A stretch of DNA of 61,029 nucleotides from a virus, in IMG/VR virus record IMGVR_UViG_3300027985_000418, positions 1 to 61,029 of that record; one strand, written 5' to 3'. A program made the translations under genes and the position numbers. Shown here in pieces: positions 29,277-50,719 of this stretch. Under the pieces are notes generated by a model. It worked only from the letters and a program-made list of their open reading frames with translations. It searched no databases and was not told the DNA's origin. Every line of letters begins with the position of its first letter. The first letter of the stretch is position 1.

Positions 29277-30032
29277 ATGGAATATATATCGCAAGATGGT
29301 ATTAATCTTCTTAAACTTGCTCAATCTGGTAATACAGTAGCAGAAGATACTTTAATTAGATTAATCAAGGACAAATTTATGAATAAACGTATCGGTAGGT
29401 ATCTTTACAGGAACAGGCAAGCAGAAACAGATGATCTTAAACAGGAATTTCTAATAGGAGTCGCACTCAATATACATAAGGCAAGAATTGATATTGGAGA
29501 TCCTATTGAATATTTAATTAATCAAGGGGTATATCGAGTTAGGTCTTATTTACGCAAAAATATTATACAGAATACAATTCAAATTTGTAGGGATTGTGGT
29601 AATAAATCAAGATTAAATAAAAATGCTAATGGTAATGGTTACATATGTAAAAAGTGTGGTAGTATACATATTGATACACATGAACTTGACGATCACAATG
29701 ATATATTGCTAGAAAACATCATTGAAGAATTAGATATTGAGGATCAGGTATTATCAACATTATTTATGAAAGAATTTGAAAATACATTAACCCAGGGAAC
29801 AAATGTTTGTAGGTTATATGAATTATTAAAATCTGGAATAAATCGCCAAAATCCCGAAATAAAGAATTATATAAAAGAAATTGCAAAGTTGTGGGGTAAT
29901 TGTTCAGAGCAAAACGTAGTTAGAAATATAGAGAAACTACGTAACCGAATTGAAGCTTTTGCAAGACAGAATAATGCAATTATTAAAAATGGTGTCTTTA
30001 TTATAATAGATGGTGGTGATAATATTGGCTGA
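29277..30032 (+). CDS. Sigma-factor-like protein with inserted zinc ribbon
   Basis: 251 aa. Residues 20-95 resemble sigma region 2: 'EDTLIRLIKDKF', 'NRQAETDDLKQEFLIGVALNIHKA', and 'YLINQGVYRVRSYLRK'. A zinc ribbon follows with C104/C107 and C124/C127. The C-terminal 'KEIAKLWGNCSEQNVVRNIEKLRNRI' has the spacing of a region 4 helix-turn-helix. It probably directs host RNA polymerase to a phage promoter class. It is the first gene behind promoter cassette 4 and overlaps the next gene's start. Confidence 0.7.
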   Translation: MEYISQDGINLLKLAQSGNTVAEDTLIRLIKDKFMNKRIGRYLYRNRQAETDDLKQEFLIGVALNIHKARIDIGDPIEYLINQGVYRVRSYLRKNIIQNTIQICRDCGNKSRLNKNANGNGYICKKCGSIHIDTHELDDHNDILLENIIEELDIEDQVLSTLFMKEFENTLTQGTNVCRLYELLKSGINRQNPEIKNYIKEIAKLWGNCSEQNVVRNIEKLRNRIEAFARQNNAIIKNGVFIIIDGGDNIG

Positions 30033-30984
30033 TAATCAAAAAGAGTTTAAATGTACGGCATGTGGTAAAATAATAATGGCTACAAAGTTTGCATCGGCTA
30101 AAACTATTAAATGCGATGAATGTAAACAGAAGAAAGTATCATCAAATCCACAGATTGTGAGTGAAATATTAGAAGAATGTAAAAAGAAAGATACTACTCC
30201 TAATACACAACCAAATACTAGCAATACAAAAATGTTACCATGTATACAATGTGGCAAAATAGTTGAGGTAACTAAATTTGCATCAGCAAGTAAGGTATTA
30301 TGTAATGAATGTAAAGGTACGGATACTATCAAAAAATCCAATACACCAAAAAATCTAAAGATTGACATTAGTAAATTGCATGGTATGCCACCAATTACTG
30401 AATATTATGTAATACCATCAATAATCAATAACCCTAGATTAAGGGATGTTCAATGTCCTGCATGTGGGCAACCACATATGAAGATATTAAATATCTTGGA
30501 TTATAGTATCTATGGATTAATAATTCATTATCAATGTGAAAATTGTTATGCATTATGGAGTATATCAGAGCAATGCAACCATATAGTCAAAACATATAAA
30601 CAAGGCGAATTATATGATTATAGTGGAGATGCAATAAATCAGTTATTGTCTGCAACTGATCATACAAGATTGCATACAACAATTAGATATTTATTGGATA
30701 TATTGATACAACACAATATATCAATACCACCCATGGATATACCATTGTATAGATTCTCAAAAGAAAAACCAATACCTGTTGGATTCACTATAGATAAAAA
30801 TACTGAATTAATTGGCATGGCGAAACATTTAGCAGATATGTTCAAAACAGCAACACGACAAGGTGAAAGTGATGATACTATTGAGGGAAGTAGATATATT
30901 ACGATTAGTGATACATTAGCAAATAAACTATCTACTAAATTATTACAATTATTAGAAAATCTTGATTATAATACAAATGATTGA
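30025..30984 (+). CDS. Multi-zinc-ribbon protein
   Basis: 319 aa from TTG 30025 after GGTGGTGATAATA; ATG 30010 is possible. The N-terminus has two copies of a zinc ribbon of form 'C-x2-C-GK-I---TKFASA-K---C-x2-C' (about residues 9-34 and 71-96). A third ribbon uses 'CPACGQPH...CENC' in the middle. The C-terminal half is helical. No family recognised. It overlaps the sigma-like gene, so a transcription or DNA-binding role is plausible but unproven. Confidence 0.7.
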   Translation: MADNQKEFKCTACGKIIMATKFASAKTIKCDECKQKKVSSNPQIVSEILEECKKKDTTPNTQPNTSNTKMLPCIQCGKIVEVTKFASASKVLCNECKGTDTIKKSNTPKNLKIDISKLHGMPPITEYYVIPSIINNPRLRDVQCPACGQPHMKILNILDYSIYGLIIHYQCENCYALWSISEQCNHIVKTYKQGELYDYSGDAINQLLSATDHTRLHTTIRYLLDILIQHNISIPPMDIPLYRFSKEKPIPVGFTIDKNTELIGMAKHLADMFKTATRQGESDDTIEGSRYITISDTLANKLSTKLLQLLENLDYNTND

Positions 30985-31004
30985 AATTAAATAATTTATT
31001 ATGG

Positions 31005-31052
31005 ATGATGCCTAATACTATATACTTATTACAAGGTGATGTTAGGCATCAT
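31005..31052 (+). promoter_or_regulatory. Inverted repeat before the nuclease gene
   Basis: ATGATGCCTAA pairs with TTAGGCATCAT (11 bp, 26-base loop). It ends 25 bases before the nuclease start. With no T tract it is more likely an operator or leader hairpin than a terminator. Confidence 0.55.
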
Positions 31053-31076
31053 AAATCATATTTAGGAGGAATAATA

Positions 31077-32366
31077 ATGGGATTAGAAAGAAACAATATT
31101 CTATTACAGATTTATAGAAATAGGTCTGAAATGGAATGTGATTTAGTGTTAAAGGATACTGGTGAGATAATCGATAGGATACCTGTTCAATTTAAGTCAA
31201 GGGAAAATAAATTGGATTATCTATCGGTATCTAAGATCCATGCTTATGAGCAATGTCCTGCATGTTTCTATAAACAATATATATCAGATGATGGTATCAC
31301 AAATGATGGTAGTAATTTCTTTACTGTGTTTGGTAGTATATTACATGAAGTTGTTGAATTGGCATCAAGATATTATACAGACAATGGTGTAATAGTTGAT
31401 CCAATTACAATATATGATGATGTATGGAAAAATCACAACTTATCAGATTTTAATGCATACAAAGAGGGCAAGACCTTGATAAGAGATTATTTCACTAATA
31501 ACCCAATAGACCAACGTAAAGATAATACATACGGTGTCGAAGTGGAGTGGCGAGGAGAGTTAGGTGGTGTAACATTTGGACTAATGTTTGACTATATTGG
31601 AATTATGAAAGAAGATCCTACAGTTGGTGTATTAAAAGATTACAAAACAAACAGAATGCCATTTACTCCAGGCGAACTTGAAGATAGTTTGCAATTATGT
31701 ATTTATGAGATAATATTACGAAGACATATCTTACCAGATATAAAAACATGGGTTACTGGATATGAAATGTTCAGATTTGGTTGGCAACAATGTCCACAAC
31801 GTTCTGAAGAAGATTTATTAAATGCTGAAAAATATGTTGAAAATATTGCATATCAGATTAAGCATGATAATAAGTGGGAAGAAAAATTGAATAACTATTG
31901 TGGATATCGTGATTGCAGATTTACTTGTAAGAAATATAAAGATTTTATAGAAAACCCACAAAATTATATTGATGTTATACTCACAGATACTACGGATCTC
32001 GAAAAATTAGAAAAGGAACGTGAACTGCTAACTACGTATGAAAAAATAGCAAAATCACGTAAGGAAGATGCCGCAAATATTATTAAGACTAAACTTGAAC
32101 AATGTATGATAAATGGCGAAAAACTTATCATTGATGGCAAAGAATTATCATTATATTCAAGTGGTAAGTCAACTTATGACTACTATGATACAAAAAATGT
32201 ATTATTAGTAAATAATAAGTTAGATATCTTGGACAAATGTTTGTCGATACAGAAGACTAAACTTGATAAGGAAATCGCAAACATACCAGAATTAGCATTG
32301 CAATTAGCAGGTTGTCAGCATACAAGTTATGCTTCACCATATATTGTTAAGAAAAAGGCGAAATAG
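31077..32366 (+). CDS. Cas4/RecB-like PD-(D/E)XK nuclease
   Basis: 429 aa from ATG 31077 after TTTAGGAGGAATAAT; an upstream in-frame ATG (30981) would run through the hairpin. Motifs in order: 'LSVSKIHAYEQCPACFYKQYI', 'FGSILHEVVELASRYY' (motif with H), 'GLMFDYIGIM' (D), 'GVLKDYKTNR' (D-x-K), 'SLQLCIYEIIL' (Q/Y), and C-terminal cysteines 'CGYRDCRFTCKKY'. With the early CPAC this can form a 4Fe-4S cluster as in Cas4/AddB. It probably trims DNA ends in phage recombination or replication. Confidence 0.85.
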   Translation: MGLERNNILLQIYRNRSEMECDLVLKDTGEIIDRIPVQFKSRENKLDYLSVSKIHAYEQCPACFYKQYISDDGITNDGSNFFTVFGSILHEVVELASRYYTDNGVIVDPITIYDDVWKNHNLSDFNAYKEGKTLIRDYFTNNPIDQRKDNTYGVEVEWRGELGGVTFGLMFDYIGIMKEDPTVGVLKDYKTNRMPFTPGELEDSLQLCIYEIILRRHILPDIKTWVTGYEMFRFGWQQCPQRSEEDLLNAEKYVENIAYQIKHDNKWEEKLNNYCGYRDCRFTCKKYKDFIENPQNYIDVILTDTTDLEKLEKERELLTTYEKIAKSRKEDAANIIKTKLEQCMINGEKLIIDGKELSLYSSGKSTYDYYDTKNVLLVNNKLDILDKCLSIQKTKLDKEIANIPELALQLAGCQHTSYASPYIVKKKAK

Positions 32367-33144: not shown

Positions 33145-34323
33145 ATGAGAGATAATCAAAGCAGAGGTAAGGTAACAGTAGTTTTAGATTCTCAAGCAGG
33201 TTCGTGTGGCAAGGGTAAATTTATAGGATATTTAGCCACACATGACAATATTGATATTGCTATGAACAATTTTATGTCAAATGCAGGTCATACAATGGTG
33301 ACTAATGATGGTAATAAAATCATGACACAGCATCTGCCAACATCACTAGCAGATCCAAACATTTTCTTATTAATAGGTCCAGGTTCAGCTATTACACCAA
33401 ATATCCTATTTGATGAAATACTTAAATTCTGTGATTTGCTTGATGATAGAAGAATTGTAATTCATCCAAGAGCAAATGTAATCCTCCCTAAACATTCAGA
33501 AATTGAAAGACAAACTATAAGATCTGGATCAACATTTAAGGGTTGTGGTGCGGCATGTGCAGATAAGGTTATGAGGACTGCAATATTATTTGGCGAATGG
33601 TTTAAAAATACTGATTGGTCAAATATGCTGAACACTAAAGGTGAGAAATACTCACAAGAAGATATTTCGTACATTTATGATACAATTGATATTGAAGACA
33701 CAATGCCAATAATCAATCAATATATTGATTGTAATTATAATGTTCTAATTGAGGGATCACAAGGATGTGATCTTGATATCAATTATGGATTGGGGTATCC
33801 ACACACAACAAGTCGGCAATGTCATGCAGGACAGCTGATAGCTGATTGTGGTATATCGCCAAAGCTTGTTGATGAAATCATTATGATAATGCGACCATAT
33901 CCAATCCGTATCAGTAATGAGACAAATATTGGTATTAATATATCAAGTGGTGATTATGATGGTGCTGATGAAATATCATGGGATATCGTTAAAGAAAGAT
34001 GTGGTGCACCTGCTGAAATGGACTTCGGTGAAATGACTACTGTTACAAAGAAACAACGTAGGGTATTTGAAATGAATTGGAGTAGACTCGAGTATGTAAC
34101 TATGCTAAACAGACCAACGCAGATTGCATTAAATTTCGTACAATACATTGATTTCAATGCATATGGTTGTACGTCTTATGATCAATTATCACAAAAGGTA
34201 ATTGATTTTATTAATAAGGTTGAGGATGTTACTGGAGTACCAGTTACATTGATTGGTACTGGTGAGAGAAATGATCAGATTATTGATCTGAGAGATATTA
34301 AAATTGGAGGTAAAAACAAATGA
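33145..34323 (+). CDS. purZ: Adenylosuccinate synthetase homologue, PurZ type
   Basis: 392 aa. Clear PurA superfamily features: P-loop-like 'QAGSCGKGKF' (18-26), 'SNAGHTMV' with His49, 'IEGSQGCDLDINYG' (202-215), 'TTSRQC', and 'TGVPVTLIGTGERNDQIIDL' at the end. In PurA the first motif is QWGDEGKGK with a catalytic Asp; here it is QAGSCGKGK, so Asp is replaced by Ser20. That Asp-to-Ser change marks phage PurZ, which condenses dGMP with aspartate toward dZMP, the 2-aminoadenine nucleotide. AAAGGAGTGAGATT precedes the ATG. It sits among replication and dNTP genes and overlaps the next gene by 4 bases. Confidence 0.85.
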   Translation: MRDNQSRGKVTVVLDSQAGSCGKGKFIGYLATHDNIDIAMNNFMSNAGHTMVTNDGNKIMTQHLPTSLADPNIFLLIGPGSAITPNILFDEILKFCDLLDDRRIVIHPRANVILPKHSEIERQTIRSGSTFKGCGAACADKVMRTAILFGEWFKNTDWSNMLNTKGEKYSQEDISYIYDTIDIEDTMPIINQYIDCNYNVLIEGSQGCDLDINYGLGYPHTTSRQCHAGQLIADCGISPKLVDEIIMIMRPYPIRISNETNIGINISSGDYDGADEISWDIVKERCGAPAEMDFGEMTTVTKKQRRVFEMNWSRLEYVTMLNRPTQIALNFVQYIDFNAYGCTSYDQLSQKVIDFINKVEDVTGVPVTLIGTGERNDQIIDLRDIKIGGKNK

Positions 34324-34796
34324 AAATTGTAGACTTACCAAAATACGGTATTGATGATGTTATTGATTTATCTAGTAAGATTGATGGCTTGGCTGATAGG
34401 ATTAAGATTATCAAAGCTATAGTAGACAGATCTGGCAAATGGTCATATGAAGTGAAATCAGAAAAGAATGGTGGGAAAATTGAACTGACGGAACAATTCA
34501 TATCTAAGAATAAAATTAATAAGAATTATCATGGAGTATATAATAATACTACAATTATTGATCTTATGGCACAGGGATATAGATTCTGTGGTAATGATGA
34601 GGTATTTGCTGCTAGAGCAAAAGCTGAAAAGATAAAAGATCTAAAATTGCCGAGTATTATTGCTATTAGAATATATAATGCATATGACCATCGTGGTAAT
34701 ATACTTGGTAATAATATGAGAGGAGTATGGGTTAAATATTCAATGAGTATATTTGATCCATGTGATAATAAGGGTGAATATGAAAGAATTCTATAA
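34320..34796 (+). CDS. Unknown protein coupled to purZ (158 aa)
   Basis: The start overlaps the purZ stop (ATGA), with GGAGGTAAAAACA inside the purZ end, so both are co-translated. No HD motif (DatZ) or MazG-type E-x2-E...E-x2-D helices (MazZ) are visible. The N-terminal helix 'DLSSKIDGLADRIKIIKAIVDRSGKW' precedes an alpha/beta region with 'LPSIIAIRIYNAYDHRGN' and 'GVWVKYSMSIF'. Not recognised. The tight link makes it a candidate helper of Z-DNA synthesis or of the phage replisome. Confidence 0.7.
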   Translation: MKIVDLPKYGIDDVIDLSSKIDGLADRIKIIKAIVDRSGKWSYEVKSEKNGGKIELTEQFISKNKINKNYHGVYNNTTIIDLMAQGYRFCGNDEVFAARAKAEKIKDLKLPSIIAIRIYNAYDHRGNILGNNMRGVWVKYSMSIFDPCDNKGEYERIL

Positions 34797-34885: not shown

Positions 34886-35947
34886 ATGGGATGGGATAAC
34901 GTAACAGGTGATGCGAAAATCGTTCCAAGTGCAGGTGGTAATAGTAATGAGATCAAATTGGAAAATGGTAAGGCTCGTAGGGTAAGAATATTGGATAATG
35001 AACCATATTCATATCTTGAACACACATTGGAAATTGATGGTTTAGAAAATGGGCAACCTACAAAAACATTCAGAACAATCAGATGTCCAAAAACATCAGA
35101 TAATCCAAATGCACATTGTCCATTATGTGATGGACAGGTATTGAAGAGAAGAATAAGACATGCGATAAATGTATGGGATTATGAAACAAATTCCGTTCAG
35201 AAATTGAATGCAGGTGAAAATGTCTTCAAACCAATTGCAACAACACGCAAACTGGGTGTCGATATTCTGAGTGTTGATTGGGCGATCCTAAAAACTGGTG
35301 AGGGAAGAAATGATACTACATATAGTGCCACAAATCTTGGACCATCACCATTTACACTATCAGAGGGTACAAGCCTTTATGATTTAAAATCTGACTATGC
35401 ACCACATAGTGTGGATGATATGAAACAGATTATTGAATCTTGTGGTGGAAATTGGGATACTTGTATTACACAACCAACACTAATGTATCCATCATTACAA
35501 GATGCACTTGCTCATGTAATGCCAAATGGCAAATATAAGGACAAAACTTTTCAACAGATTTGGGATTTAGACAAATCTCCAAAGGGTATGATCAATTATT
35601 TGGCGACAAAATCTGATCGTATTACAATGGAAAAGGCATGTGCTCAAGTAATACTTGTTAATTTGGGCGGTGCTAATATTCCAGGTGTCCCACTTGATGG
35701 ACAAACATCTACTGCTGCATCAACTGCAACTGTATCAACTGCACCAACTGCAACTGCACCAACTGCAGACAGAACAAATAAGATTAATAACATTAATCAA
35801 CTTTTGGCAACAAAACCAAAGTATGTTAATGGTGGATTTAATCTTATTATGGAAGTTATGAAATCAGTTGGTAATGGGAAAACCAATATCAGCGATTTCA
35901 CCGATGCCGAACTTGATGCAATGCTAACAGAGTGTAACAAAGACTAA
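34886..35947 (+). CDS. gp32-like single-stranded DNA-binding protein
   Basis: 353 aa. The N-terminal domain has 'ARRVRILDNEPYSYLEHTLEID' and a zinc site 'CPKTSDNPNAHCPLCDGQ' followed by 'WDYETNSVQKLNAGENVF', the layout of T4 gp32-like proteins with an OB fold and zinc finger. 'NGKYKDKTFQQIWDLDKSPKGMINYLA' in part resembles the DUF3820/exonuclease-X-associated motif. A Thr/Ala/Pro linker (about residues 272-296) leads to a helical, acidic C-terminal end suited to partner binding. Codon use is richer than neighbours, consistent with high expression. Confidence 0.75.
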   Translation: MGWDNVTGDAKIVPSAGGNSNEIKLENGKARRVRILDNEPYSYLEHTLEIDGLENGQPTKTFRTIRCPKTSDNPNAHCPLCDGQVLKRRIRHAINVWDYETNSVQKLNAGENVFKPIATTRKLGVDILSVDWAILKTGEGRNDTTYSATNLGPSPFTLSEGTSLYDLKSDYAPHSVDDMKQIIESCGGNWDTCITQPTLMYPSLQDALAHVMPNGKYKDKTFQQIWDLDKSPKGMINYLATKSDRITMEKACAQVILVNLGGANIPGVPLDGQTSTAASTATVSTAPTATAPTADRTNKINNINQLLATKPKYVNGGFNLIMEVMKSVGNGKTNISDFTDAELDAMLTECNKD

Positions 35948-36919: not shown

Positions 36920-37210
36920 ATGATATTATTAGAATCATATAGCTGTAAACAATACTACAATGATGGTTGTGTAGAATTTACAGATTTCATACAATTGGAC
37001 AATGGTAATAGAATATGTATTAATGATATTAATCCATACAATAATATTGATTGTATAGTAGTGGATTGTTATGTGCATCCTGAATCTGATGCATATTGGA
37101 TTATATGTAAACACAAAGATGGGCAATATTTTGAAATAGATGTACCAAATGGTATTGGTTATGGTGAATTTAAAGATACTTCAAAATTGAGTGGTGGTTC
37201 ACAATGGTAG
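36920..37210 (+). CDS. Hypothetical protein (96 aa)
   Basis: ATG 36920 after GGAGGTATAT. Beta-rich: 'YNDGCVEFTDFIQLDNGNRICINDINPY' and 'DCYVHPESDAYWIICKHKDGQYFEIDV', suggesting a small barrel. Not recognised. It overlaps the helicase gene by 7 bases and is probably co-translated with it. Confidence 0.65.
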   Translation: MILLESYSCKQYYNDGCVEFTDFIQLDNGNRICINDINPYNNIDCIVVDCYVHPESDAYWIICKHKDGQYFEIDVPNGIGYGEFKDTSKLSGGSQW

Positions 37211-38670
37211 TTAAAATTGAGGTAAGCAATACACAATGTAAGATAATAAATAAACTTAATACAACACAACTATCGGTACTACAGGAAATATGTTCATTTA
37301 CTGTTGAGGGATCAGAATTTAAGAAAGCACAATATAAATCTAAATCTATTGATTGGGATGGAAGAAGAAAATTATTTAATATACAATATCAGACATTTCC
37401 AATAGGTTTATTATCATTAATATGTAAAACATTTAATAATGCGGGTATAAATACCGAGATCATCAGCAATAGGAAAAATGCAAGTAATAATATATCATAT
37501 CATATGAATAATACATTTGAAATGAGAGATTATCAGACACAAGCCGTAATAGCATCAATATTACATGGTAATGGGATTATTAAAGCGGCTACTGGTGCAG
37601 GCAAAACTACTATAGCAGCCAGGACTATTGGTGGGTTACGTGGTAGGGCTATATTTATTGTACCTACACGTGATTTATTGTATCAAACTAAGAATTCATT
37701 CAGCAAGATATTTTGTGAAGAAACTATTGGTCAGATAGGTGATGGCAAGATTGATTATCAAAATATTACTGTTGCCACCATACAATCTTTAGCAATATTA
37801 GGTGATATCACATATTCGTCATATAAATATGATGAAGAAAAGCAGGATAAGGAAATATTGAATATTAATAAATATGATAAAACTGTATTTAAGAAATATA
37901 TTAATACTGTTGACATATTAATGTTTGATGAAGTACAGAGGATATGTAGTAGGACAGCATATGCTATTCGATTTATGTTTGATAAATCAAATTATGCATT
38001 TGGGTATTCTGCATCACCATGGAGAGATGATGGATCTGATTTAATGATTACGGCATCATTTGGCGATAGAATATGTGATATATCTGCAAGTGAATTGATT
38101 GATAAAGGATATCTAGTTCAACCAACTATTATTATCAAAAATAATACAAACTGTCTATGGGATGGTACTGAATATGGTACAGTATATCGTACAGCTATTG
38201 TTGAAAATATGTTTAGAAATATGATGATTGTACAAGACGCTATAGATTATTATAATCAACATAAAAATACACTAATATTAGTAACACAATTAAAACATGG
38301 TGAAATTATACAAAATATGTTGAATAATATGGATATACCTGCTATATTTATATCTGGTAAATCTGGTATGAAAAAACGTACTAAAATAATTACTGATATG
38401 AGAAATGGTAATTGTCCGATAGTAATAGCATCAACCATTGCAGATGTAGGTTTAGATGTTCCCAGATTAGAGGTATTAATTGAAGCAGGTGCAGGTAAAT
38501 CATCGGTAACAGCATTACAAAGATTAGGTAGAATTATGCGACCATTTCCAGGTAAATCACAATGTACATTTATAACATATGATGATAATGTACCATATAT
38601 TGCACACCATATTAAAAAGAAAATCAATATATGGTCAACAGAGCCGAATTTTATAATACGATATGAATAA
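37204..38670 (+). CDS. Superfamily II DNA helicase (UvsW-like)
   Basis: 488 aa. Motif I 'AATGAGKTT' (128-136), Ia 'FIVPTRDLLYQT', motif II 'ILMFDEVQR' (a DEVQ box), motif III 'FGYSASPWRDDG', motif V 'IVIASTIADVGLDVP' and motif VI 'ALQRLGRIMRPFPGK'. This is the RecG/UvsW-type SF2 layout. The N-terminal 100 residues ('KSIDWDGRRKLFN') match the UvsW DNA-binding part. It is likely to remodel forks and recombination intermediates. Confidence 0.88.
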   Translation: MVVKIEVSNTQCKIINKLNTTQLSVLQEICSFTVEGSEFKKAQYKSKSIDWDGRRKLFNIQYQTFPIGLLSLICKTFNNAGINTEIISNRKNASNNISYHMNNTFEMRDYQTQAVIASILHGNGIIKAATGAGKTTIAARTIGGLRGRAIFIVPTRDLLYQTKNSFSKIFCEETIGQIGDGKIDYQNITVATIQSLAILGDITYSSYKYDEEKQDKEILNINKYDKTVFKKYINTVDILMFDEVQRICSRTAYAIRFMFDKSNYAFGYSASPWRDDGSDLMITASFGDRICDISASELIDKGYLVQPTIIIKNNTNCLWDGTEYGTVYRTAIVENMFRNMMIVQDAIDYYNQHKNTLILVTQLKHGEIIQNMLNNMDIPAIFISGKSGMKKRTKIITDMRNGNCPIVIASTIADVGLDVPRLEVLIEAGAGKSSVTALQRLGRIMRPFPGKSQCTFITYDDNVPYIAHHIKKKINIWSTEPNFIIRYE

Positions 38671-38720: not shown

Positions 38721-39650
38721 ATGAAAATTATAGAACAGGGTTATGAGATTCTTAAACCTAAAGGGGTATTACAACACATTGAACAAATTGGGAGAGTGTG
38801 TTATAAAAGTGAAGATAAAATTACAGAAGGTTCTGCATCTAAATTTGTAAATATGCTATTCAATAATGGACATTATGCAATGTTGGAACACTACAGATTT
38901 ATTATCCAAATCCCACGTGAATTATATAAAAACATAATATGGTATAATCCACATTATATTACTATGACATTCGATAATTCAAGGTCTAGATTCATTATCT
39001 CATTCTCAGCAAGAGGTATATATGAATTATATTTAACTATCAATCGTTTCGGTGATGACTATGAAACACTTTACCAAATTTCAGACATTATTTATCAAAT
39101 TTGTGAAAAACATAATTGTCATGAGATGTTTGGTAATAAATGGATTAATGTATATAATGCAGATAATGAAAAATATAATGAGATTGAAGTTACTGATATG
39201 TCAGATTATGAGAAATTGCATCATAATTGGATGTCTGTCAAATTTATTACTGATCGTGGTATATCACATGAGTTAGTAAGACATCGTGATGCATCATTTG
39301 CACAAGAATCTACAAGATATTGTGATTATTCAGCAGATGGGTGTACATATATTAAACCGTCATATTGGAAAGATGGATCTCAATTAATGTTAAATCTTGA
39401 AGTACAATGCCAAATGGACGAAGAAATGTATAATAAAATGAAAGTATTAGGTGCTGTACCACAAGAACGTAGGGCAGTATTAAATAATGCAATTAAAACA
39501 GAAATTGTTGTTACTGCTACGGAAAATGAATGGAATCATATATTTGATCTACGAGCAATTGGTACAACTGGATCTCCACACCCACAAATGAAAGCTTTGA
39601 TGTTACCATTATATGAAGAGTGTATGTTGCATAATGGCTGTATTAGATAA
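38721..39650 (+). CDS. thyX: Flavin-dependent thymidylate synthase
   Basis: 309 aa. The ThyX signature is 'RHRDASFAQESTRY' (187-200; consensus RHR-x5-S-x-R with a variant middle). The early 'ARVCYKSED'-like segment and 'MLEHYRF' are also typical. ThyX converts dUMP to dTMP using FAD and folate and is common in anaerobes and phages. With dUTPase and NrdD it supplies dNTPs. AAGGAGGAATTGTA precedes the ATG. Confidence 0.92.
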   Translation: MKIIEQGYEILKPKGVLQHIEQIGRVCYKSEDKITEGSASKFVNMLFNNGHYAMLEHYRFIIQIPRELYKNIIWYNPHYITMTFDNSRSRFIISFSARGIYELYLTINRFGDDYETLYQISDIIYQICEKHNCHEMFGNKWINVYNADNEKYNEIEVTDMSDYEKLHHNWMSVKFITDRGISHELVRHRDASFAQESTRYCDYSADGCTYIKPSYWKDGSQLMLNLEVQCQMDEEMYNKMKVLGAVPQERRAVLNNAIKTEIVVTATENEWNHIFDLRAIGTTGSPHPQMKALMLPLYEECMLHNGCIR

Positions 39651-39801
39651 TGATATAAGGGTATGTCCACATTGTGGTAAAAGGTTTATATATAGACCTG
39701 CTACAATATATAAACACAAGCGAAATGGGATGACATACATATATTGTAGTTACACATGTTGGAGAGAAAATAGACCTAGAAAATACAGGAGGAAGCTATG
39801 A
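39634..39801 (+). CDS. Small zinc-finger protein (55 aa)
   Basis: Starts at ATG 39634 inside the end of thyX. 'RVCPHCGKRFIYRPATIYKHKRNGMTYIYCSYTCWRENR' has CPHC...CSYTC spacing and a basic centre, typical of small phage zinc-finger DNA-binding proteins. No strong ribosome site, so it is probably coupled to thyX translation. Its stop overlaps the next start. Confidence 0.7.
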   Translation: MAVLDNDIRVCPHCGKRFIYRPATIYKHKRNGMTYIYCSYTCWRENRPRKYRRKL

Positions 39802-40400
39802 ATCATTTAATTATCATGAATGGAAAACCATTGTCTGGCAAAGACACATTCGTCAAACATTGTATGTTACATACCTTTGATATTGATTATTTATCATATG
39901 CATTTTCATCGATAGATCCAATCAAGGAGATATGTATAAAACTTGGTTGGGATAGTAGGACTAAAAATGATTATTGGCGAGATATTATGTATAAATTAAA
40001 ACAAATATGGATTGCATCATGTAATGGTCCTATGGTATATATATCTGACACAGTAATAGAAAGAATAAGGGTTAGTGGTCACAACAATAATATAATATTT
40101 GTTGATATTCGTGAGATATCTGAAATCGAAGCTGTTGTAGCAGAATTTAGTAGGCTATCATTTATCAAATGTCATACAGTATTAATTCATCGTGATGAAG
40201 TATCACACATTAATCATGGGAATGTCGCAGATGATGATGTCAATAATTATAAATACGATTATGTATTTAATAATATCGATATTAATGATATTGGTGCAAT
40301 TACAATAGCTTTCATTAATAATATTACACAGAATTCTGTGACAAAGAATATTAGTAATGGCAATTATATTAAAGAAACATTTATTGGAGGTATTAATTAA
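39798..40400 (+). CDS. Deoxynucleoside monophosphate kinase-like protein
   Basis: 200 aa. P-loop 'MNGKPLSGKDTF' near the N-terminus, LID/NMP-like 'LGWDSRTKNDYWRDIMYKLKQ' and a middle 'IIFVDIREISEIEAVV' follow phage dNMP kinases (T4 gp1 type). It would turn dNMPs, possibly including dZMP, into diphosphates. AGGAGGAAGCT precedes the ATG. It overlaps the zinc-finger gene before it and touches the next gene. Confidence 0.75.
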   Translation: MNHLIIMNGKPLSGKDTFVKHCMLHTFDIDYLSYAFSSIDPIKEICIKLGWDSRTKNDYWRDIMYKLKQIWIASCNGPMVYISDTVIERIRVSGHNNNIIFVDIREISEIEAVVAEFSRLSFIKCHTVLIHRDEVSHINHGNVADDDVNNYKYDYVFNNIDINDIGAITIAFINNITQNSVTKNISNGNYIKETFIGGIN

Positions 40401-41675: not shown

Positions 41676-44291
41676 ATGCCAATATTTAACGACATAGAAT
41701 TGGTAAGACAAGAATTAAAAAGGAATATGCCATTAAATGAATTAATAGCATTGGTTGATCATAAATTCACCATCGATACTGGCACAAAATGTGATGGTAT
41801 CGAAAGAGTTAATGATGAGTTGTATAAGAAAAGATGTGATCTATTGTCACATAAGATAGATAGTGATGGTACACGTGATAGTACACCATCATTTACTATA
41901 TGTCCGCCAAAAGAATTATGGTATTGTTTTGGGTGTGGTGCTAGTGGCGATAGATTTGAATACATATCACAAAGATTTAATGTTGACCATTATGAATCTA
42001 TTGTCATGTGTGCAGAAATACAAGGATTTGACTTGAATCCATATTATAAGGATATGTCAATAGAAGAACAGGCAAGACTTAATTTATATCTAGAGAATGA
42101 TGGTGCAAGAGATTTAGCACACAACACACTACTGATGGATGATAATGCTAGGAATTATCTATTACAACGTGGTATTACTGATGAATCAATAGATAGATAT
42201 CAGATAGGATATGCACCACCATTAAATGATGGCAAAACGATATTTGATAATATTGCTAATTGTAAAACATTACAATTACATCGCAAAAACCAATTTAATG
42301 ATGCCATCGTCTTTCCAATTAATAATATAGATGGGCATATGAGATACTTCCAATCTAGACCATTCAATCCATTACCAGGACAAAAATATATATGTGCTGA
42401 TGATACACATCCATTATTTGAAGATTATAAAATATTTGGATTAGACATCGCTCGTAGAATGGTATCAAAACACAATGGTAAAATGATATGTGTAGAGGGT
42501 GCACCAGATACTATTGCCTGTACACAACAGGGCATATGTGCATGTGGTCTATTAGGTACTGTATTTAATGAAAATACATATGAACTATTTAGTAAGTATC
42601 ATATAAATGAAATCATATTGTTGCTTGATGGAGATTTACCAGGAAGAACTAAATCATTCAAGATAGCAGAAAAATATCTAGAAATGAATACCAATATTGT
42701 ATTGAAAATAGCTACAATTGACGAAGAATTAGATCCAGAAGAATATATTAATAAGAATGGTAAAGACAAACTTATTAATATTATTGATAATGCGAAATAT
42801 GCTATACAATATCTTATTGATTTAAAATGGAATGAAGCTAAAACACCTACAGATAAAATGAACTTCATGCAATCAATCAAGATATATATGGATGCTGTAC
42901 ATGATAAAATATCAAAGAGTATAATGATTACGGATATTGCTGAAAAATTATGTATAGATCCAATACAAGTGCAAGATTTCTATAATGCATCTATAGCAGA
43001 TAAATCTGGTATTCTTGTTACTATTAATGGTGAAGCAACTGTATTAGGACAGGCTATTAGGGATAAAGATTTTGTTACTGAATTATGTACAAGATTTAAG
43101 GAAGATGATTGGTATCTAATAAAACATAAATATTTGTTTAATATCTTAAAGAAAGCCGAATTCACAGATATAGAGTCATTATATACAATAGCAAAGAATC
43201 TAAATATTGATAATATTATAACACGCACTTGGCTACAATCATTGTATGATGATAGTGGTAATGTTACATTCTGCTTAAAGGATATGGAAGACAAATTGAT
43301 AAGAAGACGCTCTATCGAATTACTAAATAAAACAAAATCAAATATATCGGATATGTCATTAGATGTATCGGTGATGTTAGAAAAACATACTGTAGATATA
43401 TTCAATATTACACATAAATCAACCAATAATAAAGTATTTGATGCACACACACAAGTAAGCGATGCAATGAATATAATACAAGAACGCATGAAAAACCCTG
43501 GTGAAATAATTGGATATAGTTTAGGTAGCAACTTTAGAAAAACTACTCTAGCAATGTTGGGTGTACAAACCAAAACACTTACAATAGTTGCCGCTAATCA
43601 ATCAGTAGGTAAAACTCTAATGTGTGAAAACTGGGCATTACATCAAGCTGTTGATTTGGGTATTGGTGTATTATGGTTTACATTAGAAATGGATAAAGAT
43701 AGAATGACATTCAGAAATTTATCCATATTAAGTAATGTACCATGTACTGGTTTAATGACTGGTAACATCACACAGGAACAAAAGCATGAAATTGATATGT
43801 CTGCAATTAAATTAGATGGATCAACATTATTCTTATCAGAACGTGGTCACGATTTGAATGAAGCATTAGCAATAGCTAGAAAATATGTTATTAAGGATAA
43901 AGTTAAGATAATATATGTCGATTACATACAATTACAATATATTAGTGATAAACGTACTGATGCTAGACATAGAGAATTAGGTATGATATCAAAAGCATGG
44001 AAACAATTTTCACAGGATATGGATGTAGCTGTTATAGCTTTATCACAATTAAATAAGGAAGCATTATCTACCAAAACAGCCGAAGCATCACAAGGTGCAG
44101 GGAGTTATGAAATTGCACAAGATGCCGATGTATATGTTACATTGAAAGATAAATCAGAGGAAGAGATATCACAACGTGGAATTGACCATGGTAATATCAC
44201 TTTAAACTTGTCTAAGAATCGTATGGGTGAGAGGGAGATATTAATCGATATATATGCAGATAAGCCAGTGTATAGAATGTCAGAAGTATAA
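41676..44291 (+). CDS. Bifunctional primase-helicase (DnaG/DnaB-like)
   Basis: 871 aa. N-terminal CHC2-type zinc finger region ('KKRCDLLSHK', 'LWYCFGCGASGDRFEYI'). Toprim core: 'KMICVEGAPDTIACTQ' (acidic motif) and 'ILLLDGDLPGR' (D-x-D). The C-terminal DnaB helicase has P-loop 'AANQSVGKTLM', 'VLWFTLEMDKDRM', Walker B 'IIYVDYIQLQYI', 'VIALSQLNKEA' and 'LSKNRMGERE'. This is the T7 gp4-like layout of primase fused to replicative helicase. TGGAGGTAAGATAAT precedes the ATG. Confidence 0.92.
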   Translation: MPIFNDIELVRQELKRNMPLNELIALVDHKFTIDTGTKCDGIERVNDELYKKRCDLLSHKIDSDGTRDSTPSFTICPPKELWYCFGCGASGDRFEYISQRFNVDHYESIVMCAEIQGFDLNPYYKDMSIEEQARLNLYLENDGARDLAHNTLLMDDNARNYLLQRGITDESIDRYQIGYAPPLNDGKTIFDNIANCKTLQLHRKNQFNDAIVFPINNIDGHMRYFQSRPFNPLPGQKYICADDTHPLFEDYKIFGLDIARRMVSKHNGKMICVEGAPDTIACTQQGICACGLLGTVFNENTYELFSKYHINEIILLLDGDLPGRTKSFKIAEKYLEMNTNIVLKIATIDEELDPEEYINKNGKDKLINIIDNAKYAIQYLIDLKWNEAKTPTDKMNFMQSIKIYMDAVHDKISKSIMITDIAEKLCIDPIQVQDFYNASIADKSGILVTINGEATVLGQAIRDKDFVTELCTRFKEDDWYLIKHKYLFNILKKAEFTDIESLYTIAKNLNIDNIITRTWLQSLYDDSGNVTFCLKDMEDKLIRRRSIELLNKTKSNISDMSLDVSVMLEKHTVDIFNITHKSTNNKVFDAHTQVSDAMNIIQERMKNPGEIIGYSLGSNFRKTTLAMLGVQTKTLTIVAANQSVGKTLMCENWALHQAVDLGIGVLWFTLEMDKDRMTFRNLSILSNVPCTGLMTGNITQEQKHEIDMSAIKLDGSTLFLSERGHDLNEALAIARKYVIKDKVKIIYVDYIQLQYISDKRTDARHRELGMISKAWKQFSQDMDVAVIALSQLNKEALSTKTAEASQGAGSYEIAQDADVYVTLKDKSEEEISQRGIDHGNITLNLSKNRMGEREILIDIYADKPVYRMSEV

Positions 44292-44373: not shown

Positions 44374-44913
44374 ATGAAAACATGTATCGTAATGACTGGT
44401 TATCCATGTAGTGGTAAATCGGCAATAGGCAAAAGTGTAGCATTGTTACTCAAAATACCATATATATCATCTGGTGATATTGCAAGACAAATGGCTGAGG
44501 AAGAAATAAATGCAGATGTAAATACAGCATTAAAGAATGGTATGATGGCAACGGAAGACAAAATGAGATCGAGAATGTATGAAATATTAAAAGAAACCAT
44601 TAAACACAATAAAATATTTATATTAGATGGTTTCCCACGATTTGATGATCAAAGATTGTGGATAGAAAAGCAATTTGATATTAATTATGTATATATTGAC
44701 ATACAGGCACGTCTAGACAATATTCTAGCTAGAGCAAAATCTAGATGCAGACAAGACGATGATAAATCTATATTAATAAGACGTATAGAATGGTATGAAG
44801 AAAATACTATGCCAATGCTTAAACAAATAAATCCAATTGTAATATCTGGCGATGCGTCAATTGAAGATGCATCAAATGAATTGATTCGCATAATATCGGA
44901 GGTCATATTATAA
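44374..44913 (+). CDS. Adenylate-kinase-like nucleotide kinase
   Basis: 179 aa. P-loop 'MTGYPCSGKSAIGKS' (7-21), 'ISSGDIARQMAEEE' (NMP-binding), 'IFILDGFPRFDDQ' (the DGFPR motif) and 'RAKSRCRQDDDKSILIRRIEWYEENTMP' (LID/Arg region). It is the best candidate for phosphorylating dAMP or dZMP to the diphosphate. AGGAGGGATAATT precedes the ATG. The stop overlaps the nrdG start. Confidence 0.82.
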   Translation: MKTCIVMTGYPCSGKSAIGKSVALLLKIPYISSGDIARQMAEEEINADVNTALKNGMMATEDKMRSRMYEILKETIKHNKIFILDGFPRFDDQRLWIEKQFDINYVYIDIQARLDNILARAKSRCRQDDDKSILIRRIEWYEENTMPMLKQINPIVISGDASIEDASNELIRIISEVIL

Positions 44914-45398
44914 TGTTGGATTATACAATGTGGGTAGAATCAGTAGATCGATATGATTTTATTAATAATCCAACTGATGAAACACCATCTATTACAATAT
45001 GGTTTAGTGGTTGCACATTTAATTGTCCTGGATGTCACAATTATAGACTACAGAATAGAAATGAGGACCAACAAATTTCAGTAAATAGATTATTAAGTCA
45101 AGTAATAGAATATGCACAAAATGTTAAATCTATTGTATTACTTGGTGGTGAACCATTACAACAACCAAATATTATATTATTCCTAACAAAATTAAGGGAG
45201 ATATTAGGACATGGATATAAAATATGGTTATATACTGGTTATGAATTTGCTGATATACCAATCCCAATATTAAATTTAGTAGATATTGTTAAATGTGGTA
45301 AATTTGACAATACAAAATTAACTGGTGGTTTCCCATCATCATCCAATCAACAATTATGGAAATATACTACTGGATGGGATAAATTTACAATAAATTGA
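44913..45398 (+). CDS. nrdG: Anaerobic ribonucleotide reductase activating enzyme
   Basis: 161 aa radical-SAM activase. 'WFSGCTFNCPGCHN' gives the C-x3-C-x2-C iron-sulfur motif, then 'IVLLGGEPLQQPN' (GGE for SAM). It makes the glycyl radical on NrdD. The start overlaps the kinase stop after GGAGGTCATATTATA. It works only without oxygen, so the host is an anaerobe or the phage replicates under anoxia. Confidence 0.92.
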   Translation: MLDYTMWVESVDRYDFINNPTDETPSITIWFSGCTFNCPGCHNYRLQNRNEDQQISVNRLLSQVIEYAQNVKSIVLLGGEPLQQPNIILFLTKLREILGHGYKIWLYTGYEFADIPIPILNLVDIVKCGKFDNTKLTGGFPSSSNQQLWKYTTGWDKFTIN

Positions 45399-45416
45399 TT
45401 ATGGGAGTTGACATCT

Positions 45417-47372
45417 ATGAAAATAGGTATGAATTTAATTAAGGAATTTGAAGACCTGTATGATAGTTTTATCCAATCTGATAAAGGGTTGGAATTATTA
45501 AAAATCGAGGGCATTGCACCATCAGATTTAGATATTGGTATTCTAAGTCACAATTTCTTCGATAATAAGTTATCAGATATTGCAACAGATTCTAATTCAA
45601 ATGCAAATGAAGATATATCTCCAACAAGCTATCGTACATATACAACAAATGGTCAAATGAAATTACTTGGATATCATTTATTATGGTATTATGCTAATAG
45701 GAGATTTGGTCTAGAGTGGGCAAACCAAGCAATAACTGCTATATGGAGTGGTGATTTATATTTCCATGATGCACATGGTGTGAAGATCCAGATGCCATAC
45801 TGTTATGCGTTTAGTTTAGATAAACTGGTATTTGAGGGTAGACCTTATGGATCATCGCCAAATACACCACCTAAAAACAGAAAATCATTCTTATCACAAG
45901 TTGATAAGTTAATATCAGATTTGAGCAAACAATTTGCAGGTGCTACTGCACCGAGTGATTTCTTCCTATGGTATGCATATTATTGTAAACTGGAACATAT
46001 TGATATTGACACAGAAATCGGTAAACATACTGTGGTACAGGATATGCAGGGAATTGTTTGTTTATTTAATGAATCGAATCGTTCTGAGGGAGAACCACCA
46101 TTTACAAATTTGTCAATGTATGACTCTACAGGATTACATTCATTGTTTGGTCATATTGTATATCCAGACCATACAACACCAGATTTAGATTATATAATGA
46201 AATTACAAAATATATTCTGCGAATGGTTTAGTCATGGTGATCCTATTAGTGGATTCCCATATAAATTCCCAGTTGTAACCCAAAATTTAACTATTGATGA
46301 AAATCGAAATTTTGTAAATGAAAATGATGCCATGAATGTTGCAAGATTTAATTTGGAGAAGGGTAATTTTAATCTACATTTTGGTAAAAAGAATAAGATT
46401 GCTATGTGCTGTAGATATGAAAATGATCTTGATGACATGGAAATGACACCAGATTCATTTGGTAATGGTGGTGTTAATATCGGTTCTCATAGAGTCGCAA
46501 CACCAAATTATGGTAGAGCGGCATTATTAGCAAATAAGGATATTACGAAATTTATTGAAATTCTTGATGATTATTTTGATATTTGTGCAAAATTATTATA
46601 TATCCATCGTGTTGATATCCTACAAGGCAGGATTAACAAAAATCCACAATACCTCAAATTCTTTGGAAGTCTTGGATGGTTTGATTTGAATACAATGTTT
46701 AGTACATTTGGTGTTGTCGGTATATATGAAGCAATATCATTTTTAGGCTATGATATACTTGAAGACGATGGTACTGATCTTGGTATGGATATCATGCAAT
46801 ATATCAAGTCTAAAGTTAAACAATATAGAAACGAATATGGCTTTGTGTTTAATGCAGAGGAAATTCCAGGTGAGCAAGCTTGTGTATCATTATTGAATAA
46901 GGACAAGATCATAATAGATAAATCAACATTATCTAGTGATGTTGTTAGATTATTTGATGAATGCTATTTGTACTCAAATCAATATATACCATTAATAAAT
47001 AAAGCAGATATATTAACAAGAATTGATATATCTGGTAGATTCATGAATATGATATCTGGTGGTGGTATAGTACATGCAAATGTTGAAGCACCTATAGATA
47101 CTGTCGGCAAAATGTATGAATTAATGAAATTTACTGCTAAAAGTGGTGTACCACATATGGCTGTGTGTTATCGATTTGGTAGATGTAAATATCATAAGGC
47201 TACGATTATTGGACAAGATACGAAAGTATGTCCAATATGTGGAGAACCAATTGTACATACTAGGGCGAGAGTTATTGGATACTTTAGCGATGAGCATAAC
47301 TGGCATCCAGTAAGACAAGTTTACGATGCACCAAACCGTCACTATACAAAAAATGAACAAATAAACATCTAG
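45417..47372 (+). CDS. nrdD: Class III anaerobic ribonucleoside-triphosphate reductase
   Basis: 651 aa from ATG 45417 after GGGAG; a TTG at 45408 is in frame. 'DGQMKLLGYHLLWYY'-like start, 'SGDLYFHDAHGVKIQMPYC', 'MCCRYENDLDDME', 'GGVNIGSHRVATPNYGR' and 'LGWFDLNTMFSTFGVVGIYEA' match NrdD. The C-terminal zinc cysteines 'GRCKYH...VCPICGEPI' are followed by 'RARVIGYFSD', the glycyl-radical loop (R-V-x-G-Y). It reduces NTPs to dNTPs with formate and supplies DNA precursors. Confidence 0.92.
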   Translation: MKIGMNLIKEFEDLYDSFIQSDKGLELLKIEGIAPSDLDIGILSHNFFDNKLSDIATDSNSNANEDISPTSYRTYTTNGQMKLLGYHLLWYYANRRFGLEWANQAITAIWSGDLYFHDAHGVKIQMPYCYAFSLDKLVFEGRPYGSSPNTPPKNRKSFLSQVDKLISDLSKQFAGATAPSDFFLWYAYYCKLEHIDIDTEIGKHTVVQDMQGIVCLFNESNRSEGEPPFTNLSMYDSTGLHSLFGHIVYPDHTTPDLDYIMKLQNIFCEWFSHGDPISGFPYKFPVVTQNLTIDENRNFVNENDAMNVARFNLEKGNFNLHFGKKNKIAMCCRYENDLDDMEMTPDSFGNGGVNIGSHRVATPNYGRAALLANKDITKFIEILDDYFDICAKLLYIHRVDILQGRINKNPQYLKFFGSLGWFDLNTMFSTFGVVGIYEAISFLGYDILEDDGTDLGMDIMQYIKSKVKQYRNEYGFVFNAEEIPGEQACVSLLNKDKIIIDKSTLSSDVVRLFDECYLYSNQYIPLINKADILTRIDISGRFMNMISGGGIVHANVEAPIDTVGKMYELMKFTAKSGVPHMAVCYRFGRCKYHKATIIGQDTKVCPICGEPIVHTRARVIGYFSDEHNWHPVRQVYDAPNRHYTKNEQINI

Positions 47373-47386: not shown

Positions 47387-47935
47387 ATGAAGCAGTTACA
47401 GGTATTACGTAGTGAGATGGCTAAGGAATTCCCATTAATAGCAATCGCAAAAGATGGTGATGTTGGTATGGATTTATTTGCGTGTTTGCCATTAAAAGAA
47501 AATCATGAGCAATTACTTAAGGATTATTATGATGAATGTGGTCGCAAGGATGAAAAACCCTGTAGTATGGATTCACAATTTATCAAGGAATTAATTCATG
47601 AAACAATTACAATTATGCCAGGCGAAAGGGGTGTAATTCCAACAGGGATTAGATTAGGGTTACCATCAGATCGTTGGGCATCAATTGAAGCAAGAAGTAG
47701 TACATCAAAGAAAATGTTGGTAGTACCTAAAGGAGTTATTGACCAAGGATATCGTGGAGAATTATTTGCTGTCATATTGAACCTTGGGACAAATCCAGTA
47801 ACAATTTATCATGGCGACAGATATGTACAATTAATTCTGCATAAACGTGAGATTGCAGACATCGAAGTTATAGAGGTTGATAAATTATCAGAAACAGAAC
47901 GTGGAGATAGTGGTTTCGGATCAACTGGAAGATAG
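47387..47935 (+). CDS. dut: dUTPase
   Basis: 182 aa trimeric dUTPase. Motif 1 'DGDVGMDLFA', motif 2 'ARSSTSKKM', motif 3 'GVIDQGYRGEL', motif 4 'GDRYVQLIL' and the C-terminal motif 5 'RGDSGFGSTGR' are present. A 50-residue insertion (about 33-65) lengthens it over the usual 145 aa. It keeps uracil out of phage DNA and makes dUMP for ThyX. AGGAGGAATAAACAAA precedes the ATG. Confidence 0.92.
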   Translation: MKQLQVLRSEMAKEFPLIAIAKDGDVGMDLFACLPLKENHEQLLKDYYDECGRKDEKPCSMDSQFIKELIHETITIMPGERGVIPTGIRLGLPSDRWASIEARSSTSKKMLVVPKGVIDQGYRGELFAVILNLGTNPVTIYHGDRYVQLILHKREIADIEVIEVDKLSETERGDSGFGSTGR

Positions 47936-47945: not shown

Positions 47946-48695
47946 ATGGGTAGACTACAAGCAGGTGAAAATCCAAAAATAGACATGATCAATGCTTTAG
48001 TTGCCGATATAAAGTCATATAGTAGTACAAGCAAGGAGAGTATGACTGCTCTCCTTGATTTGTTTCATCCAATGTTATTAAATATATGTAGTAGATGGAG
48101 CAGGCATTTTGCTGATGATACACATACATTAATAAGATTTGACGAATTACTATCTGATGCACAATATTGGTTTATGAAATATACTATGGAGACATATACA
48201 ATAAATGGTTCGGCAGCATATAATAAATTTATTAAAGATCATATGACACAACGTATTAGATATATCTATGAATGCAAAATAAAATATTACAAGAATAACA
48301 TATTTCCAGATCCTAATAAACAAACAGATAATGATAATGATGATGATATGTTAGAAAATGTTACATATAAATATAAATCAGATCATGGTATTACTATTGA
48401 AGACGAGTATGAAGATAATTATACACAATATAGTAGAAATGAATTGGCAAATCAAATATTAACAATAGTGTCTGATACCAATAATTTTAATGATCGTGAT
48501 AGTCTTATATTTATCAGCATAGTATATAAAGGCAAAACACATGATGAAATTGCTAAACAATTAGATATATCACGTACTAGGGTTACACAGATTTTAAAAA
48601 GAGTTAAAGGCAGATTATATAAACTTTTAGAAAACAATCAAGATATCTGGACATTAATTAATTGTACAGATATTACATTTAATGAACAGGAGTGA
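47946..48695 (+). CDS. Sigma-factor-like transcription protein
   Basis: 249 aa. 'RFDELLSDAQYWFMKYTMETYTINGSAAYNKFIKDHMTQRIRYIYE' resembles sigma region 2 of phage and sporulation-type factors. 'GKTHDEIAKQLDISRTRVTQILKRVKGRLYKLL' is a clear region 4 helix-turn-helix. An acidic linker sits between them. It may turn on the late minus-strand operon. It is the second sigma-like gene in the window, after 29277. Confidence 0.75.
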   Translation: MGRLQAGENPKIDMINALVADIKSYSSTSKESMTALLDLFHPMLLNICSRWSRHFADDTHTLIRFDELLSDAQYWFMKYTMETYTINGSAAYNKFIKDHMTQRIRYIYECKIKYYKNNIFPDPNKQTDNDNDDDMLENVTYKYKSDHGITIEDEYEDNYTQYSRNELANQILTIVSDTNNFNDRDSLIFISIVYKGKTHDEIAKQLDISRTRVTQILKRVKGRLYKLLENNQDIWTLINCTDITFNEQE

Positions 48696-49022: not shown

Positions 49023-49949
49023 ATGCCAAAGATTACATATACTGATCTTCATATTCACTCAGAATTTAGCCTTCAAGACGGTATGATTAAAATTGCTGAT
49101 GATGATGATCCAAAGCATATTAAAACCGAATTAATTGAAATAGTTGAAAAACGTGGTACAGGTGCAGTAACTATTACAGACCATGGTAATATGTATGGAC
49201 ATGCAAGTTTGGCTTCAGTATGTCGCACATTTGGATTAAAACATATTCCAGGATGTGAATTCTATATAGCAACAGATTCTAGACATGATAAATCATATAC
49301 AAAACGTAGCGATAGTTATATGCATATCAATGCATGGGCAAAAAATAAGATTGGTTATGCTAATATGTGTAGATTGCAAAAAATATCATTCAATGAGGGT
49401 TTCTATTATGTGCCACGTATAGATAAAGAATTAATAGAAAAATATCATGATGAAATAATGTGGTCTGATGCTTGTATTGGTGGTACAATTTGTTCACATA
49501 TAATGACAGGTAATATCGATAAGGCATATGAAGAATTTATGTGGTATTTAAATCTATTAAGAGATGATTTCTATATAGAGTATCATAATCATCATATTGA
49601 TGATGAGGATGTGTGCAACAAATACAAAGTAGAATGGGCAAATAAACATGGTGTACCAATTATTGCATGTACCGATTCGCACTTTGTAAGAAAAGATGAT
49701 ATTGATGCACACAAAGCATTATTATGTATACAATATGGTAAGGTATATGATGATCCGACATTCAATGGGTTTCCTGGCGATGGATATTGGTTGATGAATG
49801 AGAATGAATTAATTGAAAGATTCCCAATTGAATATCTCAATAATACACAATTAATTGTTAATAAAGTTGATAATGGAATTATTGAATTTGGTGATATTAG
49901 ACCACCACAATTCAAAATTCCACAATGGTTTAAGGAGGAATTAAAATGA
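49023..49949 (+). CDS. dnaE: DNA polymerase III alpha, PHP-domain subunit (split)
   Basis: 308 aa matching only the N-terminal PHP domain of DnaE: 'YTDLHIHSEFSLQDGM', 'GAVTITDHGNMYG', 'PGCEFYIA', 'WYLNLLRDDFYIEYHNH' and 'PIIACTDSHFVRKDD'. Metal-binding His and Asp of PHP are kept (H10, H12; DH in TDHG; DSH). It ends at 'IPQWFKEELK', just where the thumb/palm of a normal DnaE begins. The polymerase core is encoded separately at 50760. It is probably the proofreading or structural half of a two-subunit enzyme. Confidence 0.85.
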   Translation: MPKITYTDLHIHSEFSLQDGMIKIADDDDPKHIKTELIEIVEKRGTGAVTITDHGNMYGHASLASVCRTFGLKHIPGCEFYIATDSRHDKSYTKRSDSYMHINAWAKNKIGYANMCRLQKISFNEGFYYVPRIDKELIEKYHDEIMWSDACIGGTICSHIMTGNIDKAYEEFMWYLNLLRDDFYIEYHNHHIDDEDVCNKYKVEWANKHGVPIIACTDSHFVRKDDIDAHKALLCIQYGKVYDDPTFNGFPGDGYWLMNENELIERFPIEYLNNTQLIVNKVDNGIIEFGDIRPPQFKIPQWFKEELK

Positions 49950-50694: not shown

Positions 50695-50719
50695 ATAGAT
50701 CACTTAATGTGGTCTATAT
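50695..50719 (+). terminator. Hairpin before the polymerase gene
   Basis: ATAGATCAC - TTAAT - GTGGTCTAT, 9-bp stem with one wobble, followed by ATTTATG. Only a short T-rich end, so a weak terminator or leader structure about 40 bases before the polymerase start. Confidence 0.55.

Follow-up and report, generated by a model that had tools for sequence, protein, structure and literature searches.

The synthase PurZ, phage genomes containing 2-aminoadenine (Z) and partner enzymes of the dUTPase fold are already known. The Z phages described in the accessible papers carry a PolA-family DpoZ, or a PrimPol in S-2L alone (PMC8342488, PMC12884076), and all phages with ZTGC-DNA except S-2L have PolA (PMC8342488). 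Phages with PurZ0 (Wayne, Ghobes) have a PurZ0/DutZ/DpoZ-1 system in which DutZ has the dUTPase fold but takes dATP and dGTP as substrates, and the two groups of DpoZ follow PurZ and PurZ0 (PMC12884076).

The stretch of viral DNA analyzed here (61,029 nucleotides, IMG/VR record IMGVR_UViG_3300027985_000418; hereafter the window) contains a predicted purZ gene and a gene for a C-family DNA polymerase. Replicases of this family are the type that copies bacterial chromosomes. Like the Z-cluster of S-2L, the window has PurZ without DpoZ and a replicative polymerase outside the PolA family, but the S-2L cluster, unlike the window, includes PrimPol, DatZ and MazZ. Its likeness to the PurZ0/DutZ/DpoZ-1 system (PMC12884076) lies in a dUTPase-fold gene that accompanies the synthase instead of DatZ and MazZ; it differs in having PurZ, DnaE instead of PolA, no recognized DmtZ, and a dUTPase-fold group that is only a DutZ candidate. 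As far as the accessible literature was searched, with many subscription papers lying outside it, no description was found of Firmicutes phages that pair PurZ with a C-family replicase lineage dedicated to it, and this combination appears to be new.

The gene at 33145-34323 (+) is an intact open reading frame of 392 amino acids with an ATG start and no internal stops, and a GGAG run lies approximately 8-11 bases 5′ of the ATG. Its product is predicted from profiles, residues, tree and fold to be a succino-2-amino-deoxyadenylate synthase using dGMP, aspartate and ATP. The protein matches the adenylosuccinate synthetase family of Pfam (PF00709, E=1.7e-45), and the virus family that it matches best is phrog_1211, '2-aminooxy adenylosuccinate synthetase' (E=4.6e-66), so that assignment to the family is far beyond chance. 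With the NCBIfam PurZ model NF038379 the protein scores 196 bits, below the 300-bit cut-off, which is a naming threshold and not a biological criterion, probably because the protein belongs to a deep and divergent separate branch. The archaeal PurA-like model of NCBIfam gives 220 bits, also short of its own cut-off, and no rival model passes.

Residues were compared in an alignment in which the window protein was joined by eight PurZ proteins, four PurZ0 proteins and PurA, with residue roles taken from S-2L PurZ (PMC8342488). The preliminary description had pointed to a serine replacing the catalytic aspartate of PurA in QAGSCGKGK, with the NAGHT and EGxQG motifs kept, and the exact reading frame and motif positions bear this out: in SQAGSCGKGK, Ser20 occupies the catalytic position and aligns with S23 of S-2L PurZ, and NAGHT (46-50) and EGSQG (203-207) are retained. 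Serine is also found in every relative aligned at this position. At the positions of S23, T273 and N305-F306..Q308 in S-2L, the window protein has S, T and NF..Q, where PurA has D, G and TK..D and PurZ0 has S, T and either TM..D or SF..D; the aspartate loop reads TTVT, as opposed to GA.T in PurA. On this alignment, the window protein has the residues of an ATP-type PurZ at all three sites: the serine of the putative dGMP pocket, the threonine in the aspartate loop and the Asn-Phe..Gln that would bind ATP. The one departure from the PurZ pattern is an isoleucine at the position of V241, which in S-2L PurZ lies near the 2′-carbon and is said to exclude the 2′-OH of ribose (PMC8342488); because PurA also has valine there, valine at this position alone is not diagnostic.

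Maximum-likelihood phylogeny places the window protein within the PurZ clade (100/99); PurZ0 is the sister group of that clade (100/100), and PurA, including that of P. horikoshii, lies outside. This is the comparison by which the preliminary description proposed to separate the enzyme from ordinary PurA, and together with the substrate-contacting residues it upholds the assignment to the PurZ type made there. The AlphaFold2 model of the protein (pTM 0.86) matches the solved complexes of phiVC8 and S-2L PurZ (TMt 0.84-0.86, rmsd 2.8-3.1 Å). Since PurA of P. horikoshii, the closest fold, and the PurZ complexes match the model about equally (TMt 0.84-0.91), bacterial PurA matching it worse, the fold alone cannot decide between PurZ and PurA. 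An ordinary phage PurA acting on IMP, which would raise the supply of AMP or dAMP, might be suggested by the shared superfamily, by this closeness to the archaeal fold and by the higher score of the archaeal PurA-like model. Nevertheless, serine stands in for the catalytic aspartate in all aligned relatives, the base pocket is of the ATP type and the tree excludes PurA, so a PurA identity was rejected; this explanation is already largely refuted, and we give it almost no weight. The product of the gene is therefore, as judged from its sequence, almost certainly a true PurZ. It has in common with the PurZ of phiVC8, S-2L and SH-Ab 15497 the clade, the serine for aspartate, the threonine of TTVT, the Asn-Phe pocket and the fold, and differs from them in forming a separate deep branch of Firmicutes phages with approximately 30% identity, in the isoleucine for V241 and in its partner genes.

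A tail sheath gene (10640-11737, -; E=4.3e-23), indicating a contractile tail, and a baseplate wedge subunit gene (2618-3691, -; E=9.2e-51) agree with the earlier view of the phage as a myovirus. The module that contains purZ begins with a gene for a sigma-like protein with a TFIIB-type zinc domain (29277-30032, +), a homologue of the first sigma gene of Bacillus phage vB_BpsS-140, followed by a PD-(D/E)XK (Cas4-like) nuclease gene that is kept upstream of purZ (30981-32366, +). The end of purZ overlaps by 4 bases a gene for a 158-residue protein (34320-34796, +) that three relatives retain a short way downstream of purZ. The model of this protein is SH3/Tudor-like, and a significant match to it was not found in the PDB; the idea that it is a hidden DmtZ or MazZ was rejected, the model being neither MazG- nor NDT-like. 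Next comes a single-strand DNA-binding protein-like gene (34886-35947, +; a weak match), also conserved downstream of purZ, and then genes for an SF2 helicase (UvsW-like; 37204-38670, +), the flavin-dependent thymidylate synthase ThyX (38721-39650, +), a deoxynucleoside monophosphate kinase (phrog_139; 39798-40400, +), a fused DnaG-DnaB primase-helicase (41676-44291, +) and an adenylate-kinase-like NMP kinase (44374-44913, +). The last of these is a candidate dZMP/dGMP kinase. In the IMG/VR contig L011, thyX directly adjoins purZ, and in another contig (L014:8556-9984) the stretch immediately upstream of purZ encodes a thymidylate-kinase-like P-loop protein and ThyX, with thyX one gene upstream.

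Further along are the genes for NrdG, the activase of the anaerobic ribonucleotide reductase (44913-45398, +), for the class III reductase NrdD itself (45408-47372, +), for a dUTPase-fold protein (47387-47935, +) and for a sigma-70 family factor (47946-48695, +). The presence of NrdD and NrdG supports the suggestion of an anaerobic phage. The module continues with a PHP domain encoded in a frame separate from the polymerase (49023-49949, +) and the C-family DNA polymerase III alpha subunit (DnaE) without a PHP domain (50709-53699, +). A small open reading frame (50311-50676) lies between the PHP frame and the body of DnaE, and the PHP stretch is apart from the polymerase frame in relatives too, including vB_BpsS-140. 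The preliminary description had set purZ amid the polymerase, kinase and nucleotide genes, which is right in that all belong to one module on the same plus strand; they are, however, not adjacent to purZ but 5-19 kb downstream of it. A PolA domain of the DpoZ type was found in none of the window proteins scanned, and PF00476 in none of the whole records of vB_BpsS-140 and G001-G005.

A nucleotide-level search of phage records did not find a near relative of the window. At the protein level, close relatives of its PurZ occur in four IMG/VR contigs (L003, L011, L012 and L014; 56-67% best-segment identity), and more distant ones in L013 and L015. The only close isolate is vB_BpsS-140 (MH884512), whose PurZ is 42% identical and whose gene is annotated purA, 'putative homolog of adenylosuccinate synthetase [Vibrio phage phiVC8]'. 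The pairing of PurZ with PolIII was thus already in the public record of this phage, apparently unremarked as far as we could find. Gene order is nearly collinear between the two phages: sigma-like protein, PD-(D/E)XK nuclease, PurZ, single-strand-binding-like protein, nuclease, SF2 helicase, DnaG-type primase, adenylate-kinase-like protein, dUTPase-fold protein, sigma factor, PHP and DnaE. vB_BpsS-140 differs in being an isolated siphovirus of an alkaliphilic Bacillus, as opposed to the contractile-tailed window phage, and in giving no NrdD match in the part searched, where the window has NrdD. The module, with purZ, split DnaE, dUTPase-fold gene, primase-helicase and usually an adenylate-kinase-like gene, is present in at least seven records.

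The C-family polymerase context noted in the preliminary description is real and is conserved across a lineage. In a tree of DnaE, all PurZ-associated sequences, together with those of three truncated records (G131, G132 and G133), form one clade (SH-aLRT 99) that leaves 41 other phage DnaE outside. When IMG/VR was scanned for DnaE relatives and 38 whole records were then searched for PurZ, it was found in three (G004, G134 and G135), all with a dUTPase-fold gene next to DnaE; the three truncated records also have the dUTPase-fold gene but break off within the module short of where purZ would lie, and G133 and the PurZ-positive G134 have identical DnaE. Arg582 (codon 52452-52454) immediately precedes the YGFNK motif of the O-helix, the helix that in E. 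coli DnaE carries the steric gate (PMC8485763); this residue is invariant in PurZ-associated DnaE and occurs in only 2/40 of the others. It is a candidate determinant of Z handling, although it could be a mere mark of the lineage. As with DpoZ, the polymerase lineage tracks the synthase, in this case in a different polymerase family.

The dUTPase-fold gene lies beside DnaE in all seven PurZ-positive PolIII records that span the region (the window, G002, G003, G004, G134, G135 and vB_BpsS-140) and in one of 32 PurZ-negative PolIII records (Fisher 5e-7, for rows that are not phylogenetically independent). Because the PurZ-positive DnaE sequences form a single clade, this association represents one shared history and not many independent events. 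Matches to DatZ or MazZ (HD/YfbR, MazG, DUF550 and DUF5664) were absent among the module proteins scanned, and PurZ0 phages use DutZ; control of the nucleotide pool would thus fall most naturally to the dUTPase-fold protein, alongside the ThyX, dNMP kinase, adenylate-kinase-like and NrdD/NrdG genes that make up the rest of the nucleotide set. Among 1712 phage records, its best E-values are to vB_BpsS-140 (1e-32) and then to DutZ of PurZ0 Microbacterium phages (approximately 5e-19). The pattern IDxGY(R/T)GELF(A/S) is common to the protein and DutZ, G004 having GELKA, and FIV dUTPase has part of it; the group also keeps the canonical dUTPase motifs. In a tree, the group forms a clade of its own (99/96) that joins DutZ at only 59/61, and membership of DutZ on the basis of the tree was dropped for this reason. 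The protein may be a DutZ-like dATP/dGTP pyrophosphohydrolase or a plain dUTPase.

From the homology, residue identity, clade, fold, conserved module and distinct polymerase lineage, we infer the substrate and product of the synthase, the activity of the dUTPase-fold protein, the preference of the polymerase and the presence of Z in the virion. In the proposed pathway, dGTP derived through NrdD would yield dGMP, which PurZ would join to aspartate at the expense of ATP (or dATP) to form N6-succino-2-amino-dAMP (dSMP). Host PurB would convert dSMP to dZMP, and phosphorylation to dZTP would be carried out by the phage adenylate-kinase-like enzyme or dNMP kinase, or by host Gmk/Adk, together with Ndk. 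The DnaE-type PolIII of the phage would then place Z opposite T, replacing much or all of the adenine, while the dATP level would be brought down by the dUTPase-fold protein or through consumption by PurZ itself, the S-2L enzyme being able to take dATP as energy donor (PMC8342488). The likely benefit would be protection of A-containing sites from restriction. We consider it rather likely that the virion DNA holds substantial Z. The fuller reading, in which Firmicutes phages, including contractile-tailed ones, separately assembled Z-DNA replication from PurZ, a DnaE lineage adapted to dZTP and a DutZ-like dUTPase-fold enzyme in the role of DatZ and MazZ, has in our estimate a probability of roughly 45%. 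If it is correct, a C-family replicase works with Z, so that Z chemistry would not be bound to one polymerase fold, and convergent assembly around PurZ would have a third example.

Evidence from the isolated relative bears on how much adenine might be replaced. In the isolation study, vB_BpsS-140 is reported as the only phage whose genome was left undigested by DraI, EcoRI having digested all (PMC6483233); the resistance appears not to have been tied to PurZ there. The record of the phage contains 21 DraI sites (TTTAAA; 21.1 expected) and 24 EcoRI sites, with no methyltransferase among its annotated features. Resistance to DraI fits a modified adenine; the plain alternative is methylation of the site by the host or by an unrecognized enzyme. 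Cutting by EcoRI, as reported in that study, implies that substitution may be partial or that EcoRI may tolerate Z. It is accordingly conceivable, though we think it unlikely, that an active PurZ leads to replacement of just a fraction of the adenine by Z and the dUTPase-fold protein is an ordinary dUTPase feeding ThyX; a phage without a dedicated dATP-removing enzyme and with a non-discriminating DnaE would replace adenine incompletely. The EcoRI digestion (PMC6483233), the lack of a recognized DatZ or MazZ in the module proteins scanned, the canonical dUTPase motifs in the presence of ThyX and the weak link to DutZ (59/61) are in keeping with such a phage. On the other hand, failure of DraI at 21 sites needs high substitution or another modification of A, the dUTPase-fold gene follows the PurZ-PolIII lineage strictly, and the PurZ-associated DnaE lineage is distinct. 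Because the phage is deposited as DSM 29700, according to the same study (PMC6483233), the question of Z-DNA is testable now in a relative.

A different concern arises from bacterial chromosomes. The sister group of the window PurZ (100/99) consists of PurZ-like genes of approximately 430-443 amino acids that lie amid ordinary host genes in Clostridia/Christensenellaceae MAGs of about 1 Mb (L016-L032, e.g. L024:9983-11311 and L016:9974-11263) and have the serine and the ATP-type residues. A PurA/PurZ homologue was detected in 11 of 118 Christensenellaceae genomes, six having canonical PurA, five a PurZ-like gene and none both; PurB was detected in four genomes, of which three had canonical PurA and none had a PurZ-like gene, counts that are limited by the incompleteness of the MAGs. 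In the PurZ-like-bearing genomes of this sample of incomplete MAGs, both PurA and PurB went undetected. That sister genes occur in genomes where PurB was not found casts doubt on the product of the window enzyme. The enzyme might instead make a different or unfinished product, such as a purine deoxynucleotide that is succinylated or joined to an amino acid in another way, which is put to direct use or is toxic and feeds no Z genome. The sister clade would suggest this, as PurA and PurB were not found in its genomes and a recognizable PurB could not there convert dSMP to dZMP. Against this, the phage gene forms part of a full module for nucleotide metabolism and replication, and the MAGs are incomplete. 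Bacillus, the host of vB_BpsS-140, should also possess PurB. We regard a product other than the precursor of Z as quite improbable, and a true PurZ that probably supplies Z for the phage DNA remains our preferred reading. The chromosomal genes themselves could be relevant to the occurrence of Z, or of some other modified purine, in bacteria.

The composition of the window in restriction sites is a further, weak indication. The palindromes GGCC, CCGG, GCGC and CGCG are all absent from the window (1-61029; 0 versus 65.3 expected), whereas tetramers of G and C only that are not palindromic occur at normal frequency (1.08) and tetramer palindromes containing A at nearly normal frequency (0.93). 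Loss of G/C-only sites is expected if A-containing sites are already protected, but the signal is non-specific. The ratio for G/C-only palindromes is at most 0.22 in seven of ten records of the PurZ-PolIII lineage; the same loss is seen in 6/30 low-GC PurZ-negative phage loci and not in three PurZ-positive records or in S-2L, and the difference in depletion between lineage and low-GC controls has a Mann-Whitney p of 0.011 for rows that are not independent. The A-containing GGTACC and GGATCC are also absent from the window, with about 12 of each expected.

One of the distant relatives, L015 (G006), is a viral contig in which a PurZ of 36% identity, branching at the base of or near the proteobacterial PurZ, is accompanied by a PolA-family polymerase.
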